Assembly (NCBI RefSeq): GCF_001435895.1
Contig: NZ_AZFZ01000028.1
Span: 1 to 34,914, forward strand
From: Lentilactobacillus parafarraginis DSM 18390 = JCM 14109
Lineage (GTDB): Bacteria > Bacillota > Bacilli > Lactobacillales > Lactobacillaceae
Length of the DNA: 34,914 bases
Direction of reading: 5' to 3'
Position 1 is the stretch's first letter; every line of letters begins with the position of its first letter. Positions 9,964-25,298 of the stretch are shown here, piece by piece. The notes under the pieces are model-generated. The model ran no database searches, had not been told where the DNA came from, and worked only from the letters and a program-made list of their open reading frames with translations. A program made the position numbers and the translations under genes.

Positions 9964-9993
9964 TATAGGTAATTGATTGACAGTTTTTATTCA

Positions 9994-10214
9994 GCGATGA
10001 CGGAGAAGAGTAAATTCATCCTCATTTAAAGCGACCATTGACAGTGCGAGAATGGAATGAGTGAATTGAAAGTGCGCTCTGAGTTGAATCGGTGGAAAAC
10101 ACCGCAACTAGATAGGACTCAATGAAGGTGTCTGTTTTATAGCGGGCACGAAAAAGGGTGGAACCACGATAAATCGTCCCTGTTGTTTTGGAAACAAAAC
10201 AGCAGGGCTTTTTT
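9994..10214 (+). promoter_or_regulatory. T-box riboswitch, probably tRNA-Cys specific
   Basis: The T-box sequence AGGGTGGAACCACG (10155-10168) and a following terminator are diagnostic. Stem I: GATGACGGAGAAGAGTA matches the conserved 5' side. CGGAG pairs with CTCTG (10077-10081), and AATTCA plus CTCATT pair with AATGAG plus TGAATT. The remaining 3' specifier loop is GAAAGTGCG (10068-10076). By the usual layout of codon plus purine before the lower helix, the specifier is TGC (Cys, 10073-10075). Independently, the UGGN element is UGGA, which pairs with a U discriminator. Bacterial tRNA-Cys has U73, whereas tRNA-Ser, -Val and -Leu, the alternatives from other registers, do not. Uncharged tRNA would stabilise the antiterminator and turn on the transporter genes. 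Confidence 0.93.
10178..10214 (+). terminator. T-box terminator
   Basis: CCCTG plus TGTTTTG pair with CAAAACA plus CAGGG around GAAA, followed by six T. The 5' arm can be captured by the T-box antiterminator. Confidence 0.9.
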
Positions 10215-13309: not shown

Positions 13310-13338
13310 TTGACGATGATATTCTAATGTGTTTTAAT
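13310..13338 (+). promoter_or_regulatory. Promoter of aromatic leader 1
   Basis: TTGACG (13310-13315), 17-nt spacer, TTTAAT (13333-13338). The -35 and -10 boxes and the spacer core CTAATGTG are shared with the promoter of leader 2 at 19680-19708. Confidence 0.8.
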
Positions 13339-13372
13339 AGTCACAACATCAAACGGAAAGGAATTTATCGCT

Positions 13373-13432
13373 ATGACAAAATTTGTTCAACAACTTAATG
13401 CCTATTATTACGGCTATGCTTGGTTTAGATAG
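13373..13432 (+). CDS. Aromatic leader peptide 1 (19 aa)
   Basis: The frame encodes MTKFVQQLNAYYYGYAWFR and then TAG. AAAGGAA lies just upstream of the ATG, and the promoter is 35 nt away. Four Tyr, two Phe and one Trp occur in 19 codons, with seven aromatic codons overall and six of them clustered in the last nine codons. A very similar peptide precedes the aro operon at 19740. The stop codon abuts hairpin arm 1 of an attenuator. It is best read as a sensor of Tyr (and perhaps Phe/Trp) tRNA charging, not a functional protein. Confidence 0.88.
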   Translation: MTKFVQQLNAYYYGYAWFR

Positions 13433-13589
13433 CGCCCGTTCAGATGCGGGCGCAAGCGCGTCCGCGTCTAACCCGCAATGCCGTTATTGGTTGTTGCCAG
13501 CTAGACGATTGAGTCTAGCTGGATAGGATAATTCTTTTACACGAGTAAAAAATTAGCCAGCTGGATTCTCACATCCGGTTGGCTTTTTT
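13432..13589 (+). promoter_or_regulatory. Transcription attenuator 1 (leader-peptide type)
   Basis: A chain of overlapping pairings is visible. A: GCGCCCG (13432-13438) with CGGGCGC (13447-13453). B: AGATGCGGGCGC (13442-13453) with GCGTCCGCGTCT (13458-13469), 12 bp. CGTCTA (13465-13470) with TAGACG (13502-13507). C: CCAGCTAGAC (13497-13506) with GTCTAGCTGG (13513-13522). AGCTGG (13517-13522) with CCAGCT (13557-13562). D: the terminator. Neighbouring pairings exclude one another. A stalled ribosome leaves A free, which leads to the antiterminated state. A ribosome at the stop codon masks arm 1 and leads through B and C to termination. Confidence 0.82.
13555..13589 (+). terminator. Attenuator 1 terminator
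   Basis: AGCCAGCTGGAT pairs with ATCCGGTTGGCT (12 bp with two G-T wobbles), followed by six T. Its 5' arm can instead pair with the 3' arm of hairpin C. Confidence 0.9.
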
Positions 13590-13616: not shown

Positions 13617-14885
13617 ATGACGAACACATTAACAAAATCCAATAAACGCAGACTTTCAATTGCCCTGTACCTCAACTACCTGGTACACGGAATTGGATTG
13701 ATTATTTTGACCCAGAACATGCAGGAGCTTGGGCATTTCTGGAACGTGCCAATTGCGACGGTTTCCTACGTTATCTCCGGGATTGGCATTGGAAAGCTGA
13801 TTGCCTACTTCTTATTCGGTTACTTGTCAGATCGGTTTGGCCGAAAGCAACTCGTCCTAACCGGCGCATTGAGTTACATGGTCTTCTTCCTCGGCGTTCC
13901 GTTCACAACGAATATTGCTGTGGCCTACTTATTTGCAATTATTGCCGGGATCGCCAACTCAGCGCTTGATTCGGGAACCTACCCAACGTTTGTTGAAATG
14001 GGCGGCAGTTCCAGTGCTTCGAACGTGTTCATCAAGGCATTCATGTCGTTAGGCGAGTTTGTTTTACCACTTGCCATTGCCCTGATTGAAGCTAAGAGCC
14101 TCTGGTTTGGCTGGTCGTTTATCGGGACCTTACTGGTTTTGGTCGCTAACCTATTTATTTTACGCGGCGCTAAATTCCCGGAGATGAACCATGTTGACGA
14201 AGCTTTCGTTGAGGAACATGAAAATGTGTCGAAATTCAGAAAAATTATTGCGACCATCTCATTGGCAATCTACGGATACACCACGATGGCCATTATGATC
14301 CTCTTCACCCAGTGGATCAGTATGTTTGCCACCAATAACCTTGGATACAGCTCTTTGGTTTCACACGGCTTGTTATCACTTTACAGCATTGGCTCAATTA
14401 CCGGCGTGATTTTAAACTTCATTTTGTTAAAGTTCTCGATTTCGGAAACCAAATTACTGGTTGCTATGAACGCTTTATCATTGCTGGCAATTTTCACGGT
14501 TAGTCACTCCTCAACGATTCTGATTACGTCAATTACTGCTTTCCTGTTTGGTGTTACCGCCGCTGGTGGCGTGATGCAGGTTGCGCTTAATGTGCTGCTT
14601 AAAATGTACCCAATGCATAAAGGAATCATCACCGGGACGTACTTTACATTTGGCAGTATCGCAACCTTTACCATTCCGATTGTGACCGGCTGGTTATCAA
14701 AAACAAACATTCAGCTGGTCATGAACTTCGACGTAATGATCGAATTGGTTGGCACTATCGTTGTCATTTTGACCGCAGTCTCACTCACTTCCGGAACGGT
14801 TCGCGAGACCGTTTCGCACATGGTATCAGGACTGATGCACGTTGGCGCACCGGCAGCTTCGGGGGATCGGTCGAAGGATAACTAA
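13617..14885 (+). CDS. MFS transporter under aromatic attenuation (422 aa)
   Basis: This is a twelve-segment major facilitator superfamily permease. The loop 2-3 motif appears as GYLSDRFGRKQLVLTGA (about residues 72-88). There is a central cytosolic loop around residue 195 and a polar C-terminal tail. ATG 13617 has GAGGAG 8 nt upstream; an in-frame GTG at 13608 overlaps that site and is unlikely. It is the only gene behind leader 1 and its attenuator, and it converges with aroD. The regulation implies an aromatic-pathway substrate: an aromatic amino acid, or a precursor such as shikimate or quinate. The sequence alone does not show which. Confidence 0.9.
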   Translation: MTNTLTKSNKRRLSIALYLNYLVHGIGLIILTQNMQELGHFWNVPIATVSYVISGIGIGKLIAYFLFGYLSDRFGRKQLVLTGALSYMVFFLGVPFTTNIAVAYLFAIIAGIANSALDSGTYPTFVEMGGSSSASNVFIKAFMSLGEFVLPLAIALIEAKSLWFGWSFIGTLLVLVANLFILRGAKFPEMNHVDEAFVEEHENVSKFRKIIATISLAIYGYTTMAIMILFTQWISMFATNNLGYSSLVSHGLLSLYSIGSITGVILNFILLKFSISETKLLVAMNALSLLAIFTVSHSSTILITSITAFLFGVTAAGGVMQVALNVLLKMYPMHKGIITGTYFTFGSIATFTIPIVTGWLSKTNIQLVMNFDVMIELVGTIVVILTAVSLTSGTVRETVSHMVSGLMHVGAPAASGDRSKDN

Positions 14886-17994: not shown

Positions 17995-18025
17995 ACCGAT
18001 AACATTAAAAACCGATAAGAAAGTA

Positions 18026-18267
18026 CTTAGAAATGTCGGGGAGTCACGATTAAGAAGTGCGAAGAGAGTGCCGATTTCTGGGAGGGCATGACGTCTTAAT
18101 CGTTAAAGCCGATTTTGAGTACGACAGCTTGTTCAGAGTTGTCAGGGAGCGCCCAATACAGCGCCAACGTATAATCATGTACGTGAGAGACAGGCACATG
18201 CCTGTAACTAAGGTGGTATCGCGCCCAAGCGTCCTTTCAGAAATTATTTTCTGATTGGCGTTTTTTT
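18026..18267 (+). promoter_or_regulatory. T-box riboswitch, probably tRNA-Lys specific
   Basis: The T-box sequence AAGGTGGTATCGCG (18210-18223) precedes a terminator. Stem I pairings: CTTAGAA/TTTTGAG at the base, TCGG (18036-18039)/CCGA (18109-18112), then CGATTAAGA (18047-18055)/TCTTAATCG (18094-18102), and a distal GTGCC/GGCAT region with AGAGAG. This leaves the 3' specifier loop TTAAAG (18103-18108). Codon plus purine next to the helix gives AAA (Lys); the next register, AAG, is also Lys. UGGN is UGGU, matching an A73 discriminator as in tRNA-Lys. An alternative reading, CCG (Pro) at 18109-18111, requires breaking the TCGG/CCGA helix but also fits A73. Confidence 0.88.
18229..18267 (+). 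terminator. Terminator of the second T-box
   Basis: CGTC and CAGAAA pair with TTTCTG and GGCG around a small internal loop, followed by seven T. Confidence 0.8.
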
Positions 18268-18416: not shown

Positions 18417-19638
18417 TCGACAAGCGTTCATTCCAAATCAACATATGGTCGTCGACACCCAAACTGGCATGATCATTGAAACCGCAAGCGGCAATGCAAC
18501 CCGTCAGGCCTGTGATGAGGTGGTCGACATGCACGGGCGGTTTGCGATGCCCGGTATGATGAATGCCCATACCCATATGACTGATATGCCAACGTACTGG
18601 TGGCAAAATGGGGCTGAAAAGCGGCATCCTGATTCACGAGAGATGTGCACAATGTTTGCCATCCGGAATATGCAGGACGCGCTGGCGCATGGGGTTACAT
18701 ATATCCGCAATGTTGGTGCGGAGTTTGACATCGACATTGAGATCAAAAAAATGCAGGAAAAGGGCTGGATTAAGGGACCCAAAGTTATGACATCCGGGCG
18801 GGCTTTCTGTATCACAGGGGGACACGATTCTGATTGTGGGTATGAGGTCGACGGTGTCGATGAGGTGCGCAAGGGTGTCCGGCAGGCAATGAAGAACGGC
18901 GTCGATAATATTAAAATGATGGTTACCGGCGGCGTCCTCAAAGATGGCGAGACCCCCGAAGATATTCAGTTTACGTTTGAAGAAGCCCAGGCAGCCGTAA
19001 TGGAAGCTCATCACAAGAATAAGACGGCTGCTGCTCACGCCCAGGGAAACGCCGGCGTTAAAGAAGCGGTGGCTGCGGGATTTGATACGATTGAGCACGC
19101 GTTTGAAATTGATGACGAGACAATTGCCATGATGAAGGCTCACAAAACCACGATTGTGCCAACGATGAACGCCATGTACGCGATTTACAAGCATGGGCAG
19201 GGAATTGTTCCAGATTGGGCACAGGATAAGGTTATCACTAATATCCAGAAGCACTTTAGGAGCATTACTAAAGCTGTGGCGGCTGGTATTCCAATCGCAA
19301 TGGGAACTGACGCCGGTACGCCATTTAACGGCTTTCAGAACGAGAGCGCTTATGAACTGCAACTTTACGTTAAAAAGGCCGGGATGACACCCGCCCAAGC
19401 GATTGATGCCGCAACAATTAATTGCGCGCGGGCGATGCACGTTCAAAATGAATACGGTCAGTTGCTTCCTGGAAATCATGCGGATTTTATTGTGACTGAT
19501 AAAAATCCTGCAAAAGATATTACCGTCCTTCAGGCTGATAAGGACGTGTACCAAAATGGTGCCCAAGTCCATGCGCAGCAAGAAGTAGCGGTGGCTCACA
19601 AATCACAGAATCCGGTCCATATTTCAGCGGCTTTGTAA
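18373..19638 (+). CDS. Amidohydrolase-superfamily dipeptidase (prolidase-like, 421 aa)
   Basis: This is a metal-dependent hydrolase with a TIM-barrel fold. Metal ligands are visible: NAHTHM (His66, His68), the likely carboxylated Lys in NIKMMVTGG (about 180), His in AAAHAQG (about 222), His in TIEHAFE (about 243) and Asp in MGTDAGTPF (about 316). This group is often labelled Xaa-Pro dipeptidase or imidazolonepropionase. Several characterised members instead cleave Xaa-Arg or Xaa-Lys dipeptides. The upstream T-box, best read as Lys-specific, favours release of Lys from peptides. No signal peptide is seen, so it is cytosolic. An upstream in-frame stop (18364-18366) fixes the start at 18373. Confidence 0.9.
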   Translation: MTKINYTNIAVYNHDRQAFIPNQHMVVDTQTGMIIETASGNATRQACDEVVDMHGRFAMPGMMNAHTHMTDMPTYWWQNGAEKRHPDSREMCTMFAIRNMQDALAHGVTYIRNVGAEFDIDIEIKKMQEKGWIKGPKVMTSGRAFCITGGHDSDCGYEVDGVDEVRKGVRQAMKNGVDNIKMMVTGGVLKDGETPEDIQFTFEEAQAAVMEAHHKNKTAAAHAQGNAGVKEAVAAGFDTIEHAFEIDDETIAMMKAHKTTIVPTMNAMYAIYKHGQGIVPDWAQDKVITNIQKHFRSITKAVAAGIPIAMGTDAGTPFNGFQNESAYELQLYVKKAGMTPAQAIDAATINCARAMHVQNEYGQLLPGNHADFIVTDKNPAKDITVLQADKDVYQNGAQVHAQQEVAVAHKSQNPVHISAAL

Positions 19639-19651
19639 CGCAAATTTACGA

Positions 19652-19676
19652 TTAGAAACACATTAAAAGTTTCTAA
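19652..19676 (+). promoter_or_regulatory. Perfect inverted repeat just upstream of the aro promoter
   Basis: TTAGAAAC-N9-GTTTCTAA with 8-bp perfect arms ends 3 nt before the -35 box of leader 2. It has no T-tract, so it is a poor terminator for the dipeptidase gene and may be an operator. It is not found before leader 1. Confidence 0.45.
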
Positions 19677-19679
19677 GGG

Positions 19680-19708
19680 TTGACGAAGCATTCCTAATGT
19701 GGTTTAAT
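19680..19708 (+). promoter_or_regulatory. Promoter of aromatic leader 2 and the aro operon
   Basis: TTGACG (19680-19685), 17-nt spacer containing CTAATGTG, TTTAAT (19703-19708). It is nearly identical to the leader 1 promoter. Confidence 0.82.
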
Positions 19709-19739
19709 TATGACAATCTAATGAGAGGAATTGATAGCA

Positions 19740-19799
19740 ATGACAAAGCAAACTTCTGTTGTTAATACTTATTATTTTGGCTATGCCTACTTTATGTAG
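19740..19799 (+). CDS. Aromatic leader peptide 2 (19 aa)
   Basis: The frame encodes MTKQTSVVNTYYFGYAYFM and then TAG, with GAGGA upstream of the ATG. It has the same length as leader peptide 1 and shares the pattern MTK...YY(Y/F)GYA(W/Y)F. Four Tyr and two Phe occur within the last nine codons and no Trp is present, so Tyr/Phe supply is the likely signal. This fits its place before chorismate mutase and tyrA. The stop codon abuts the first attenuator arm. Confidence 0.9.
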   Translation: MTKQTSVVNTYYFGYAYFM

Positions 19800-19957
19800 T
19801 GTCCGCAGCGATGCGGACGCAAATTCACGCGTTCGCGTCTAAGTGGTGCAGAGTCAATGCTTTGTTGTTGACCGCTAGACGCAAAAGTCTGGCTGGGTCA
19901 ATACCAATTCTTTACGAGTTTCGTAAACCGGCTGGAATTATTCTAGCCGGTTTTTTT
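19800..19957 (+). promoter_or_regulatory. Transcription attenuator 2 (leader-peptide type) of the aro operon
   Basis: The pairings follow the same order as in attenuator 1. A: GTCCGC (19801-19806) with GCGGAC (19813-19818). B: GATGCGGACGC (19810-19820) with GCGTTCGCGTC (19829-19839), 11 bp. GCGTCTA (19835-19841) with TAGACGC (19876-19882). C: TTGACC and GCTAGAC (19868-19880) with GTCTGGC and GGTCAA (19887-19901). CTGGCTGG (19889-19896) with CCGGCTGG (19928-19935). D: the terminator. The arms differ in sequence from copy 1 while pairing is kept, which is within-window covariation. Confidence 0.85.
19925..19957 (+). terminator. Attenuator 2 terminator
   Basis: AAACCGGCTGGAA pairs with TTCTAGCCGGTTT (13 bp with one wobble) around TTA, leading into seven T. 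Confidence 0.92.
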
Positions 19958-19986
19958 CATCAAAAAATTTCGAGGTGGGATGAATA

Positions 19987-20286
19987 ATGGCAAAAACACA
20001 ATCAGCATCATCAGCGCCTGACGAGTTAGAAAGTGCGCGTCAGTCAATTAATCAGCTCGACGAGTCAATTGTTGACTTATTGACGAAGCGCTTCGAGCAG
20101 GCAGCTGATATCGGAAAAATTAAGAAGCAGAGGGGACTCCCAGTCTTTGATGCCAGTCGAGAAGAAACGGTTCTTCAAAGAGTAACGTCCTATCATCCAA
20201 ATCAAGAAACGAAGCAGTATATTTGGAATATTTATCGTTCAATCATGGAAAATACCCGGGATTATGAAAAGCATCAACATGAATAG
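19987..20286 (+). CDS. Chorismate mutase, AroQ class (99 aa)
   Basis: It converts chorismate to prephenate, the entry to Phe and Tyr synthesis. This is a small all-helical, single-domain enzyme. The first helix carries SINQLDESIVDLLTKRFEQA (about residues 19-38), followed by IGKIKKQRGLPVFDASREE with the conserved Lys and Arg residues, and a C-terminal IYRSIMENTRDYE helix. The length is normal for a monofunctional mutase. GAGGTGGG lies before the ATG. It is the first gene behind attenuator 2; aroC follows after 55 nt. No fused dehydratase or dehydrogenase is present. Confidence 0.92.
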   Translation: MAKTQSASSAPDELESARQSINQLDESIVDLLTKRFEQAADIGKIKKQRGLPVFDASREETVLQRVTSYHPNQETKQYIWNIYRSIMENTRDYEKHQHE

Positions 20287-20341
20287 CTGATAGTTGTCAT
20301 TTAAACATCATGAAAGACCCAATCAAGGAGGAGAAAATATT

Positions 20342-21511
20342 TTGCTGAACTACTTAACTGCTGGAGAATCACACGGCCCACAACTTACCGGAATCATTGA
20401 AGGAATTCCGTCAGGACTGCATTTAGACATTGACGAAATTAACAATCAGCTCAAGAAGCGCCAGGGCGGCTATGGTCGCGGCAATCGGCAAAAAATTGAG
20501 CACGATCAGGTCACAATTGTCGGTGGTGTGCGCCACGGCACCACCTTGGGGTCCCCAGTTGCCTTGGTTGTGAATAACCGCGATCATGCCCACTGGAATG
20601 AGATTATGGATCCGGTTACTCCAGAAACGCCGGAAAATACGCTCAGGAAGGTTGAGCGTCCGCGTCCAGGGCATGCCGACTTGGTTGGGGGGATGAAATA
20701 CCGCCACCATGATTTACGAAACGTCTTAGAGCGATCGTCAGCCCGTGAAACGGCCATTCGAGTTGCAATTGGCGCCGTTTGCAAACAGCTATTGGAACAG
20801 GTTGGTATTCGGATTGCCGGTTACGTGCAACAGATTGGGCCGGTCTCAACTGACGATCAATTAGAACTGGACGTTACAAAGATCGAAAACGAAATCGCAA
20901 ACAATGATTTGCGAATTGTTGACCAAACCAAAGTCGACGAGATCCATGATTTGATTGACAAGACCCGAAAGGATGGCGATACCCTTGGTGGGATCATCCG
21001 TGTGGTTGCGGATAACGTTCCAGCCGGACTTGGAAGTTATATTAGCTGGGATACCAAATTGGACGCGAAAATTGCCGCGGCGGTTGTCGGGGTTAACGCA
21101 ATGAAGGGTGTCGAAATTGGCGACGGCTTCAAGGCGGCCACCAGCTTCGGCAGTCAGGTCATGGATGAAATTGACTGGAATAAGGATGATGGCTTCTTCA
21201 GAAATACGGATCATCTTGGTGGATTTGAAGGCGGGATGACTAACGGGATGCCGATTATTGTGAAGGCGGCAATGAAGCCAATTCCCACGCTTTATAAGCC
21301 ATTGCAGAGTGTTGATGTCAACACCAAAGCCGTTAAGAAAGCCAATGTGGAACGCTCAGACACCACGGCCATTGTACCGGCTTCCATTGTGATCGAGAGC
21401 GTCGTGGCAATTGAACTGGCCAAGGCATTAACGGACAAATTTGACGCGGATAACGTATCACGGCTTCAGGAGCAGGTTGCGGCATATCGTGATGAGATTA
21501 AGCATTATTAG
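20342..21511 (+). CDS. aroC: Chorismate synthase (389 aa)
   Basis: It converts EPSP to chorismate using reduced FMN, the last common step of the pathway. The N terminus LNYLTAGESHGPQLTGIIEG and the later RPGHADLVGGMKY, RSSARETA and GGFEGGMTNG segments are family hallmarks. The proper start is the TTG at 20342, 8 nt after AAGGAGGAG. Starting there gives the usual length, whereas an ATG at 20294 would add 16 atypical residues that contain the ribosome binding site. It lies in the middle of the aro operon, 11 nt before aroA. Confidence 0.95.
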   Translation: MLNYLTAGESHGPQLTGIIEGIPSGLHLDIDEINNQLKKRQGGYGRGNRQKIEHDQVTIVGGVRHGTTLGSPVALVVNNRDHAHWNEIMDPVTPETPENTLRKVERPRPGHADLVGGMKYRHHDLRNVLERSSARETAIRVAIGAVCKQLLEQVGIRIAGYVQQIGPVSTDDQLELDVTKIENEIANNDLRIVDQTKVDEIHDLIDKTRKDGDTLGGIIRVVADNVPAGLGSYISWDTKLDAKIAAAVVGVNAMKGVEIGDGFKAATSFGSQVMDEIDWNKDDGFFRNTDHLGGFEGGMTNGMPIIVKAAMKPIPTLYKPLQSVDVNTKAVKKANVERSDTTAIVPASIVIESVVAIELAKALTDKFDADNVSRLQEQVAAYRDEIKHY

Positions 21512-21522
21512 GAGGAACGCCA

Positions 21523-22827
21523 ATGAAGAATTTAACGGACAAACCAACCGCCGGGTTACACGGAGAACTAACCGTCCCCGGTGATAAAAGTATCTCGCAT
21601 CGCGGCATTATGTTTGGCGCGATTAGCCGCGGCCGAACCACGTTACATCACTTTTTGACAGCGGAGGATTGTTTGTCCACGCTGCATGCATTCCAAGAAA
21701 TGGGTGTTTCGATTCGGCGTGACGGTGAAACGGTTGAAATCGATGGGGTTGGCCTAAACGGGTTACACGAACCAACCAAGCCGCTGGATATGGGTAATTC
21801 CGGGACGACCACCCGACTAATCATGGGGCTGTTAGCTGGTCAACGGTTTGAAACGACACTGTTTGGGGATGATTCACTGTCGCAACGACCGATGCGGCGG
21901 GTGAGCGACCCACTTGCGTTAATGGGCGCTAATATTTGCGTGACGGAGGGCCATCTGCCAGCGCGGATTCATGGGCAAAAGCTTCATGGAATTGAGTATC
22001 AGCTTAAAGTTGCCAGCGCCCAAGTGAAGAGCGCGATGATTCTTGCCGCTATCCAAGCTGAAGGCCCGTCGATCCTGGTGGAAAAGCAACCAACCAGAAA
22101 CCATACTGAGCGGATGTTGAATGCCTTTGGCGCCTCCATTGAAACGCTTGATGACAACGTGACAATTAAGGTAGCACCCCAGCCTGAACTTACCGGAATT
22201 GATCTGACGATCCCAAGCGATATGTCCTCGGCCGCGTTCTTCTTGGTAGCCGCCACGTTGGTGCCCCATTCGAGAATTACTTTAAAGAATGTTGGAATGA
22301 ACGAAACACGAACCGGTTTGCTGTCAATTCTCAAGCGAATGGGCGGGAAAGTTACCGCCACCAATGAACGTGATGATGGTGAGCCGACAGCCGATTTGAC
22401 GGTTATGAGTGCCGACCTAAAGCCAATTGAAATTGGTGCTGAGGAAATCCCCGCGGTGATTGATGAACTTCCTTTGGTTGTCCTTCTGGCCGCCAAGGCA
22501 AATGGGGTTAGTCGAATTACCGGTGCCGGTGAATTACGGGTCAAAGAAACTGACCGGATTTCCGCCGTCGTTCATGAATTTTCAAAATTAGGGATTGCGA
22601 TTCGCGAATTACCTGACGGGTTCGTAATCGATGGTTCGAAGCCATGGCACGTTGAAACGACTAAACTATCCAGTCATGGTGATCATCGAATTGGGATGAC
22701 GCTAGCAGTTGCGTCATTATTGGTTGACGAACCGCTGCGGTTAGCGGATCCTGATGCCGTTAATATTTCGTATCCGACGTTCTTTGAAGATCTGCGGAGC
22801 GTTTCAAGCGTTAAAAACTATTCATAG
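21523..22827 (+). CDS. aroA: 3-Phosphoshikimate 1-carboxyvinyltransferase (EPSP synthase, 434 aa)
   Basis: It condenses shikimate-3-phosphate with phosphoenolpyruvate. Motifs: VPGDKSISHR (about residues 18-27) with substrate-binding Lys and Ser, LDMGNSGTTTRL (about 88), SQRPMRRV (about 120), ASAQVKSAMI (about 165), VIDELPLVVLLA with the catalytic Asp (about 312), and LRVKETDRI (about 340). GDHRIGM near residue 388 is typical. The length is normal for the bacterial enzyme. GGAGGAA precedes the ATG. tyrA follows after 13 nt. Confidence 0.97.
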   Translation: MKNLTDKPTAGLHGELTVPGDKSISHRGIMFGAISRGRTTLHHFLTAEDCLSTLHAFQEMGVSIRRDGETVEIDGVGLNGLHEPTKPLDMGNSGTTTRLIMGLLAGQRFETTLFGDDSLSQRPMRRVSDPLALMGANICVTEGHLPARIHGQKLHGIEYQLKVASAQVKSAMILAAIQAEGPSILVEKQPTRNHTERMLNAFGASIETLDDNVTIKVAPQPELTGIDLTIPSDMSSAAFFLVAATLVPHSRITLKNVGMNETRTGLLSILKRMGGKVTATNERDDGEPTADLTVMSADLKPIEIGAEEIPAVIDELPLVVLLAAKANGVSRITGAGELRVKETDRISAVVHEFSKLGIAIRELPDGFVIDGSKPWHVETTKLSSHGDHRIGMTLAVASLLVDEPLRLADPDAVNISYPTFFEDLRSVSSVKNYS

Positions 22828-22840
22828 GGGGATTGTTGGT

Positions 22841-23698
22841 ATGGCTACGGTGCTTATAAGTGGATTGGGATTAATTGGCAGCTCAATTGCCCGAGTGATG
22901 CGAGGCAACGATTCTGATATCGAATTGATTGGCAGCGATCCGGACGACGATACCAGCCAGTTTTTGCTCGATCATCACATTATTGACAAGCGGATGAATT
23001 TTGCTGCCGCGGCGCAAATTGCCGATTTAATTGTGTTGGCCGGGCCAGTATCAGTGATTATTTCTCAGTTGAAACAGTTGGCCAACATTAAGTTAAAGCC
23101 CGATGTCCTGGTAACCGACGTGGGCAGCACAAAGGCTGCGGTTGAACGGGCCGCCGAGCCGCTGCTGGCAAAGGGCGTTAACTTTGTTGGCGGCCACCCG
23201 ATGGCGGGGTCCGATAAATCCGGCAGCCAATTTGGGAGCCAACATTTGTTTGATCACGCCGTGTATTTTCTGCTCACTAAATCGCAAACTAATCGCAAAC
23301 TAATTTGGTTTCAAACCCTTATGGCTGGGGCAGATATTCACTGGCAGGCAATTGATGCCAAGCAACATGATCAACTGGTCAGCGAATTGAGTCACGTTCC
23401 CCACGTGATTGCGGTTACACTGGTGAACACAATTGCCGATAGCTTAGCGGGAAATCCAGCGAGGTTAAGAGCGGCCGCTGGCGGGTTTAAAGATACGACG
23501 CGAATTGCGGCGTCTGATCCCACAATGTGGACAGCCATTATGCTTAGTAATGCTGATCAAATTAGTCGAGAATTAGTCCAGTTTCAAAAGCACCTTGCCG
23601 CCTTTCAACAGGCGATTCAATCTCACGATGAAAAGACGATTCGGGAAACGCTGGAAAGTGCGCGCAGAACCCGTAAATCATTAGACGAAGGGAAATGA
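22841..23698 (+). CDS. tyrA: Prephenate dehydrogenase (285 aa)
   Basis: It oxidises and decarboxylates prephenate to 4-hydroxyphenylpyruvate, the direct tyrosine precursor. The NAD-binding motif GLGLIGSSIA (about residues 8-17), TDVGSTKAAV, GGHPMAGSDKSG (about 122) and SHVPHVIA with a catalytic His (about 184) are present, as is GGFKDTTRIAASDP. ATG 22841 follows GGGGGAT; an in-frame ATG inside aroA is too far upstream and unlikely. No ACT regulatory domain is present: the protein ends soon after the dehydrogenase core. Its presence agrees with Tyr codons in the leader. No prephenate dehydratase gene is in the operon. Confidence 0.95.
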   Translation: MATVLISGLGLIGSSIARVMRGNDSDIELIGSDPDDDTSQFLLDHHIIDKRMNFAAAAQIADLIVLAGPVSVIISQLKQLANIKLKPDVLVTDVGSTKAAVERAAEPLLAKGVNFVGGHPMAGSDKSGSQFGSQHLFDHAVYFLLTKSQTNRKLIWFQTLMAGADIHWQAIDAKQHDQLVSELSHVPHVIAVTLVNTIADSLAGNPARLRAAAGGFKDTTRIAASDPTMWTAIMLSNADQISRELVQFQKHLAAFQQAIQSHDEKTIRETLESARRTRKSLDEGK

Positions 23699-23704
23699 GT
23701 TATT

Positions 23705-24211
23705 ATGAAAGCAATTTTAGTTGGCTTTATGGGAAGTGGCAAAACCACTGTTGGTCAGTTATTGGCCAATCAGATCCAAGTCCCATATCATGATTTGGAT
23801 GATGTAATCGTTGAACGTGCCGGTAAGTCGATTCAGCAAATATTTGACGATGAAGGTGAGGACGCCTTTCGCAAAATGGAACATGAGGCCCTTCTTTCAT
23901 CCTTAGGTGACGCCGGCATTTTGGGCACTGGTGGCGGAACACCGATGCAGCAAACCAACTTTGACCTGTTACGACAGACAACCGTTCCCGTGATCCTGTT
24001 GGACGTTCATCCTGAAACGATCATGAAACGTCTGCAGGGCGACAATGCCCGCCCATTAGTCAAGAAGCTTGGCCAAGACGGATTGGTTGAATTAAAACGC
24101 GTCCGTGATGATCGTTACCACATGGTGAGCGATATTCGAATTGCGACTGATGAATTGTCCCCTAAGCAGGTGGTTGATCAAATTATGCGGGAATTATCGG
24201 TGTTAAATTAA
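23705..24211 (+). CDS. aroK: Shikimate kinase (168 aa)
   Basis: It phosphorylates shikimate with ATP. The Walker A motif GFMGSGKTTVG (about residues 7-17), DLDDVI (about 31) with the shikimate-binding Asp, FRKMEHE (about 55), GTGGGTPM (about 75) and the ARPL lid region (about 117) are all visible. It is a compact, standard-length enzyme. The start lies 6 nt after tyrA stops, with GAAGGG inside the end of tyrA, so translation is likely coupled. Confidence 0.95.
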   Translation: MKAILVGFMGSGKTTVGQLLANQIQVPYHDLDDVIVERAGKSIQQIFDDEGEDAFRKMEHEALLSSLGDAGILGTGGGTPMQQTNFDLLRQTTVPVILLDVHPETIMKRLQGDNARPLVKKLGQDGLVELKRVRDDRYHMVSDIRIATDELSPKQVVDQIMRELSVLN

Positions 24212-24227
24212 CTGAGGAGGACTTTAC

Positions 24228-25100
24228 ATGATGGATGGACACACAACACTGTACGGTTTTATTGCACATCCAGCGGCGCATAGTTTGTCACCGCTGATAC
24301 ATAACACGAGTTTTCGAGCCCTGGGGATTAATGCGGCTTATTTGGCGTTTGATATTAACACCGACACACTTGAAGATATGGTGGCGGCAATTCGGGCGAT
24401 GGGCATTGGCGGTATGAATTTATCACTGCCCCTCAAAACCGACGTTATTCCGTTGCTGGATGCCGTCACCCCCCGGGCAAAGCGGTTAAACGCGGTGAAT
24501 ACCATTATTAATCGGGATGGTCAACTGACTGGTGATACCACTGACGGCCAGGGATTTGTTGACGCGCTTGAGTATCAGGGAATTCAAATTGCGGATAAGC
24601 AACTGACAATTTTGGGTGCTGGCGGGGCCGGTCGTTCAATTATTGGGGCTGCAATTGATGCTGGGGTCGCTCACATTGACGTTTTTAAACGGCAAAACGC
24701 GACGTTTGCTGACCGAAAACGCCAACTGGAATCCTGGTCGGATAAGGTTTCCGTTCTTCCCTACGATGATGAACAGGCAATGGCGCAGTCAGTTTCCGAT
24801 AGTCAAATCGTTGTGAATACAACCAACGTTGGGATGGCTCACGATCAAGCGATGCCGGTGAGTCAAGCGGTAATGGCCGCCATTACGCCCCAACATATTA
24901 TTTTTGATGCCATCTACTTCCCATTAGTGACACCGTTTCTTGCCGCAGCGAAAATCAAGGGTGCCCAAACCTTCAACGGCATTGGCATGTTAGTTCAGCA
25001 GGCTGCCGGATCATTCTTTGAGTGGACTGGCCAAAAGATGCCAATTGATCAGGTAATGACTGCCGTTAATGAAGCGGTTGCCAGTCGCCAAACCAACTAA
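24228..25100 (+). CDS. aroE: Shikimate dehydrogenase (290 aa)
   Basis: It reduces 3-dehydroshikimate to shikimate with NADPH. The shikimate-binding AHPAAHSLSPLIHN (about residues 14-27), SLPLKTDVIP with the catalytic Lys (about 67) and NTIINRDGQLTGDTTDGQGF with the catalytic Asp (about 105) are conserved. The nucleotide motif GAGGAGRSI lies near residue 131. GAGGAGG precedes two adjacent ATG-type starts; the first was taken. It is the last gene of the aro operon. No terminator was found between it and the TPP riboswitch. DAHP synthase and aroB are not in this window. Confidence 0.96.
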   Translation: MMDGHTTLYGFIAHPAAHSLSPLIHNTSFRALGINAAYLAFDINTDTLEDMVAAIRAMGIGGMNLSLPLKTDVIPLLDAVTPRAKRLNAVNTIINRDGQLTGDTTDGQGFVDALEYQGIQIADKQLTILGAGGAGRSIIGAAIDAGVAHIDVFKRQNATFADRKRQLESWSDKVSVLPYDDEQAMAQSVSDSQIVVNTTNVGMAHDQAMPVSQAVMAAITPQHIIFDAIYFPLVTPFLAAAKIKGAQTFNGIGMLVQQAAGSFFEWTGQKMPIDQVMTAVNEAVASRQTN

Positions 25101-25131: not shown

Positions 25132-25158
25132 AGTAAGTGCAAATACAATCAAATTGAT

Positions 25159-25247
25159 GACATTAGGGGAGCCGTTTGGCTGAGATGCATGAACATGATG
25201 CGAACCCTTCGAACCTGATCTGGTTAACGCCAGCGAAGGAAATTGTC
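25159..25247 (+). promoter_or_regulatory. TPP riboswitch aptamer (THI element)
   Basis: The sequence carries the conserved segments GGGGAGCC, GGCTGAGATG, ACCCTTCGAACCTGATCTGG and TTAACGCCAGCGAAGGAAA. The closing P1 helix is GACA with TGTC. It binds thiamine pyrophosphate and lowers expression of the downstream gene. Confidence 0.97.
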
Positions 25248-25252
25248 GGGAG

Positions 25253-25298
25253 ACCTCCTTTTGTTATCGATGATGATCGATTAACGAGGAGGTTTTTT
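25253..25298 (+). terminator. TPP riboswitch expression platform with embedded ribosome binding site
   Basis: ACCTCC (25253-25258) pairs with GGAGGT (25288-25293), with GTTA/TAAC and TCGAT/ATCGA inside. Six T follow directly and run up to the start codon. The 3' arm is the thiW Shine-Dalgarno sequence itself, so one hairpin could both terminate transcription and hide the ribosome binding site. Confidence 0.75.

Follow-up and report, generated by a model that had tools for sequence, protein, structure and literature searches.

Two leaders in the Lentilactobacillus parafarraginis window

The stretch of DNA analysed here, referred to as the window, comprises positions 1 to 34,914 of contig NZ_AZFZ01000028.1 (34,914 nucleotides (nt), forward strand) of L. 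parafarraginis DSM 18390 = JCM 14109 (assembly GCF_001435895.1). It contains an operon for aromatic amino acid synthesis preceded by a leader whose sequence supports, as the best reading, a Tyr/Phe leader-peptide attenuator. A preliminary description had proposed a promoter, a 19-codon frame with six aromatic codons among its last nine, five ordered pairings ending in a terminator, and a chorismate mutase-aroC-aroA-tyrA-aroK-aroE operon. Promoter hexamers, frame and terminator were all located (Table 1), and Pfam matches to CM_2, chorismate synthase, EPSP synthase, prephenate dehydrogenase, shikimate kinase and shikimate dehydrogenase agreed with the proposed operon. The pairings exist, but five was an undercount, as seven consecutive pairings are supported in the family of related leaders. 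The spacing of the six genes suggests that they are co-transcribed.

The open reading frame (ORF) is preceded by AGAGG, which resembles a Shine-Dalgarno (SD) sequence, and none of 200 shuffles was as stable as the leader RNA (folding energy z = -6.7). The promoter of copy 1 was absent from a consensus promoter scan of 19500-20400. The consensus -35/-10 pattern (TTGACn-N15-19-TATAAT-like) was found upstream of 88 of 144 related leaders, with a spacer of 17 nt in 77, compared with 12 of 2880 mononucleotide shuffles. A second full attenuator unit (copy 2), missing from the preliminary description, was found at 13310-13589 ahead of a gene for a major facilitator superfamily (MFS) transporter; its aromatic block includes a Trp codon. 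Directly after the aro operon, a thiamine pyrophosphate (TPP) riboswitch at 25155-25258 lies ahead of a ThiW-type transporter gene, and this was the only Rfam match in the window at gathering score.

Table 1. Features of the two leaders and the genes behind them
Feature	Position	Strand	Description	Basis
Promoter, copy 1	19680..19708	+	TTGACG 19680-19685, 17-nt spacer, TG-extended TTTAAT 19703-19708	Sequence; layout repeated in copy 2
Leader peptide ORF, copy 1	19740..19799	+	MTKQTSVVNTYYFGYAYFM stop; 19 codons + TAG	Sequence
3' end of leader ORF, copy 1	19781..19799	+	Duplex -10.0 kcal/mol	Family tests, one weak
Segment A	19800..19809	+	Immediately 3' of ORF stop codon	
Segment B	19808..19820	+	Pairing partner A or C	
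Segments C and C'	19829..19859	+	Pairing partners B, Z or D	
Segment D	19866..19884	+	Pairing partner C or E	
Segment E	19885..19903	+	Pairing partner D, or F (putative antiterminator)	
Segments F and G	19925..19957	+	Intrinsic terminator hairpin 19925-19953, U-run to 19957	
Operon behind copy 1	19987..25100	+	Chorismate mutase, aroC, aroA, tyrA, aroK, aroE	Pfam
Promoter, copy 2	13310..13338	+	TTGACG, 17-nt spacer, TG-extended TTTAAT	
Leader peptide ORF, copy 2	13373..13432	+	MTKFVQQLNAYYYGYAWFR stop	
Segments Z, A, B, C, D, E, copy 2	13414..13521	+	Three-state behaviour at C:D (simulated)	
Terminator F:G, copy 2	13550..13589	+		
MFS transporter gene behind copy 2	13617..14885	+	MFS_1	Pfam

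Distribution and target genes

A model built from 34 leaders (R1) found both window copies and no third in this genome at E <= 0.01; in the window, a further model (R2) returned both copies and one chance-level match (E 0.96). DNA similarity at E <= 0.001 gave matches, some of them short, in 43 of 301 genomes of the Lactobacillaceae. With R1, the element was detected in 207 of 397 genomes and 27 of 40 genera of this taxonomic family (E <= 0.01). The members that carry a genus name are Secundilactobacillus, Loigolactobacillus and Nicoliella, all Lactobacillaceae. In the sample of the order, 85 of 295 genomes matched R1, many with weak scores. Only part of the R1 matches were read; 81 further loci were inspected singly, of which four (L177, L179, L185 and L187) were false or unconvincing. 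R2 matched 34 of 348 genomes in the sample of the class. Beyond the order, loci of three families look real when read (G652; G763, with three copies; G790, with two), those of G668 and G929 do not, and G799 and G809, of the same genus as G790, were left out of this reading. The three matching genomes among 299 of the phylum sample (E <= 0.001) all belong to the order of the window, and one is the window's own. A copy on a 344-kb plasmid of Nicoliella spurrieriana (L250, NZ_CP093360.1) precedes shikimate dehydrogenase-aroD-MFS genes; its leader ORF is not in the gene table of that record, a table incomplete by its own account.

The genes behind 145 distinct leaders encode MFS transporters (42), TrpX-like ABC substrate-binding proteins (40), aro operons (27, a class in which L067 was placed) and aroE operons (18), and more rarely a short prephenate dehydratase-like (PDT-like) protein (4), prephenate dehydratase (2), DAHP synthase (2) and others (10). 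Rather than one attenuator, the element is a family serving many target genes. The ten other targets are an aroA homologue, an Na+/H+ antiporter, an amino acid permease, a POT-family transporter, two family-3 ABC binding proteins, an aminotransferase, a transketolase, an insertion-element fragment and a citrate- or sulfate-type anion symporter; several of these have no obvious aromatic role. The one TrpX-like protein tested scored 324 bits, under the TrpX cut-off of 390. Phe-only leaders at L110, L131, L148 and L150 precede a short protein of about 180 residues that is possibly a divergent relative of prephenate dehydratase. The PDT-like label reflects a presumed N-terminal resemblance; Pfam gave no match for L110, L131 or L148, and NCBIfam none for L131. 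At L052, an MFS-type leader now lies ahead of an ISL3-type transposase fragment, and its terminator differs.

A C-terminal chorismate mutase domain was found in 15 of 40 homologues of the window's MFS transporter behind the element. Eleven of these are among the 30 homologues complete in the fetched DNA (L060, L061, L063, L064, L066, L068, L133, L136, L144, L149 and L213), and the sequences of the remaining fusions are cut (L033, L034, L047 and L050). Pfam identified CM_2 in four homologues (L063, L133, L149 and L213) and not in one comparison protein. These fusions tie the MFS family to the aromatic pathway. The window's own MFS protein has no chorismate mutase domain by Pfam and reached the cut-off of none of the 12 NCBIfam families listed.

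Leader peptide, pairings and ribosome position

An SD-like sequence with an in-frame start was present in 68 of 76 leaders, and the putative ORFs, which are read from sequence, have a median of 19 codons. Codons -2 to -9 before the stop specify an aromatic residue in 66, 65, 16, 56, 34, 59, 44 and 26 of 71 leaders, respectively; at codons -10 to -15 this is so in three leaders at most. The third base of the Tyr and Phe codons varies (TAT 129, TAC 65, TTT 158, TTC 25). The aromatic composition of the leader peptide follows the target gene: the Phe share is 1.00 ahead of PDT-like genes, 0.75 for pheA, 0.69 for TrpX-like genes and about 0.32 for the aro operon. Comparison of Phe-synthesis leaders, which make up 5 of the 103 distinct class-peptide pairs, with the rest gave p = 0.0002 by label permutation, without correction for relatedness. 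Trp codons are confined to aro, MFS or other leaders (14 of 54, against none of the remaining 49), a split chosen after seeing the data. The leader peptides compared carry one feature expected of a leader-peptide attenuator, a codon run for the end product of the pathway, and the RNA carries another, mutually exclusive pairings of which one ends in an intrinsic terminator.

In the proposed mechanism, a short Tyr/Phe-rich peptide would be read by the ribosome ahead of a chain of competing hairpins. A ribosome at the stop codon would lead to B:C and one stalled at the aromatic codons to C:D. Whether D is freed or held would then decide the fate of E, which may pair with D or, as an antiterminator, with F, against the F:G terminator. 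We folded the leaders up to D with the ribosome footprint kept open at each codon (71 of 76 leaders usable; 11-nt edge). With the ribosome at the stop codon, B:C dominated and C:D of at least 3 bp formed in 10 of 71 leaders; the figures were 11 for free RNA and 16 at codon -2. This number rose to 34 at codon -3 and to 38-46 for a stall at -4 to -8, and was 27 far upstream at -13. A 13-nt footprint edge moved the rise from -3 to -4. With a 12-nt edge, C:D increased significantly on average at -4 to -8 (p = 5e-11; 1e-6 for 27 non-redundant leaders), rising in 53 leaders and falling in four relative to the stop state. C:D is favoured by codons from -3 or -4 to about -9, a range that overlaps the aromatic block; the aromatic codon at -2 lies outside it, which is a mismatch. 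In the simulation, copy 2 showed three clean states with C:D mainly at -4 to -7, and copy 1 did not switch because its C:D forms in every state. Extending the folding to F to include the E:F step gave a modest, weak effect in the family and none for the window copies. Collectively, the simulations support the proposed mechanism at the family level, with the last step inferred.

A conserved Gln-[Leu/Val]-Asn stretch, whose Leu and Val codons vary, precedes the aromatic block. It raises the alternative that sensing is done by the nascent peptide, as a Q-[LV]-N-x-aromatic arrest sequence that stalls the ribosome on a free aromatic amino acid, or on its lack, and acts through the same hairpin chain. 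Asn stands two residues ahead of the first aromatic residue in 61 of 120 distinct peptides, and [LVI]N adjoins the block in 42 of 120, compared with 26 of 1051 dipeptides elsewhere. However, the motif is missing in the other 78, Tyr, Phe and Trp are interchangeable within the block, and the aromatic identities change with the regulated gene, as expected of a codon sensor. We therefore consider an arrest peptide improbable. Lactic acid bacteria very probably use the leader to switch on aromatic amino acid genes when those amino acids run short, and the leaders appear to form a multi-operon family of aromatic attenuators with an unusually long pairing chain. The preliminary description identified the kind of element correctly and took too narrow a view of its extent. 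The check it proposed, for relatives without the aromatic peptide or pairings, was run, and the reading passed in the relatives read.

Known systems and alternative readings

The enterobacterial trp, pheA and his attenuators combine a short ORF rich in end-product codons with competing hairpins and a terminator before biosynthetic genes. The present family differs from them in its seven consecutive pairings, its mixed Tyr/Phe/Trp block, segment A directly after the stop codon and its several target operons. Attenuation of this style had been called unexpected in Firmicutes, but it is not unprecedented there. Histidine leader-peptide attenuation is described in bacilli and other Firmicutes in place of a T-box (PMC2965389, PMC9413887), and a leucine attenuator peptide of S. 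aureus appears in a title (PMC5794164). The histidine leaders share the principle and differ in amino acid, genes and taxa. The nearest aromatic case found in print, compared by description only, is uORFC-13-1 of Acholeplasma, an upstream ORF (uORF) with one or more Phe codons and a terminator before aroF; its 24 representatives are from Acholeplasma and environmental sequences only (PMC8632094). A figure legend in PMC6429828 lists two uORFs containing Phe and Tyr that lie at shikimate genes, without stating the taxa there.

Parts of the family have been recorded under other names. Rosinski-Chupin et al. (2015; PMC4448216) described, upstream of two ABC transporter operons in Streptococcus agalactiae, both terminated and long transcripts, found one element (gbs2033 type) also before aroFBC-tyrA of E. 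faecium, and proposed riboswitches. As described in that paper, the gbs2033 and gbs1262 elements resemble our family in being conserved in Lactobacillales, preceding ABC transporter operons and showing premature termination. Judging from taxon, gene context, RF02863 and these descriptions, one or both probably belong to it. A metabolite-binding riboswitch for aromatic amino acids or their precursors has in its favour this published reading, the single start site shared by the short terminated and the long transcript, and the mention of an unpublished shikimate-related ligand for the opuB motif (PMC11109978), by which aromatic-pathway riboswitches may exist. We regard it as very unlikely here, since the aromatic block keeps a fixed register with the stop codon and segment A; the main text of PMC4448216 has no word beginning 'peptide', our alignment (A3) spans Z to C' only, and no aptamer search was made.

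The Rfam search proposed in the preliminary description was run: at gathering score no leader family, nor RF02863 (sRNA_2410), matches at the element in the window, and relatives fall partly into RF02863. With E up to 1, 19600-20000 gave three weak matches that fall well short of the gathering score (trpB motif, 25.9 of 59 bits; RcsR1, 22 of 60; L20 leader, 18.1 of 58.7). RF02863, filed as a small RNA (sRNA), gave matches spanning model positions 1-196 where the leader lies in 16 of the 40 related loci that were scanned. The paper behind this Rfam family (Enterococcus sRNA 2410; PMC5593968) describes an RNA of 195 nt detected on Northern blots, and the main text has no word beginning 'leader' or 'attenuat'. 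These matches and the transcripts detected in E. faecium would also fit a trans-acting sRNA with a coincidental downstream gene, a reading we hardly credit because a terminated leader would resemble such an sRNA and most loci read have the element ahead of aromatic biosynthesis or transporter genes in the same direction. Parts of the family are thus filed as 'sRNA', and probably others as 'riboswitch'.

If the attenuator reading is true, the aromatic amino acid genes of lactic acid bacteria would form one shared regulon whose sensor can be read, and sRNA_2410, probably with the proposed streptococcal riboswitch, would be reclassified as terminated leaders. The leader codons would predict the controlling amino acid operon by operon and point to substrates of unnamed transporters, namely Phe in the case of many TrpX-like ABC systems and an aromatic compound or one related to chorismate in that of the MFS family. 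The long pairing chain would be a natural test case for the passage of a signal along nascent RNA.

In Firmicutes, amino acid genes are usually controlled by T-box riboswitches. A far-reaching version of our reading, which we put forward tentatively and think rather less likely to be right than wrong, is that one family is a main aromatic amino acid sensor throughout Lactobacillales, and in a few other Bacilli, in the place expected of the T-box. It would act as a three-state, eight-segment switch in which Z, the peptide-coding end and at the same time a structural strand, would keep untranslated RNA off and the conserved Gln-Leu/Val-Asn part of the nascent chain would aid the stall. Not all TrpX-type transporters are under the element, because the trpXYZ operon of S. 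suis is controlled by a T-box (PMC9382623). Covariance-model scanning of this genome gave 47 T-box (RF00230) matches, 14 over the cut-off, and none at the aro leader. Two matches below gathering lie elsewhere in the window, at 9988-10184 (68.1 bits) before a gene at about 10270 and at 18019-18239 (60.6 bits) before an amidohydrolase gene.
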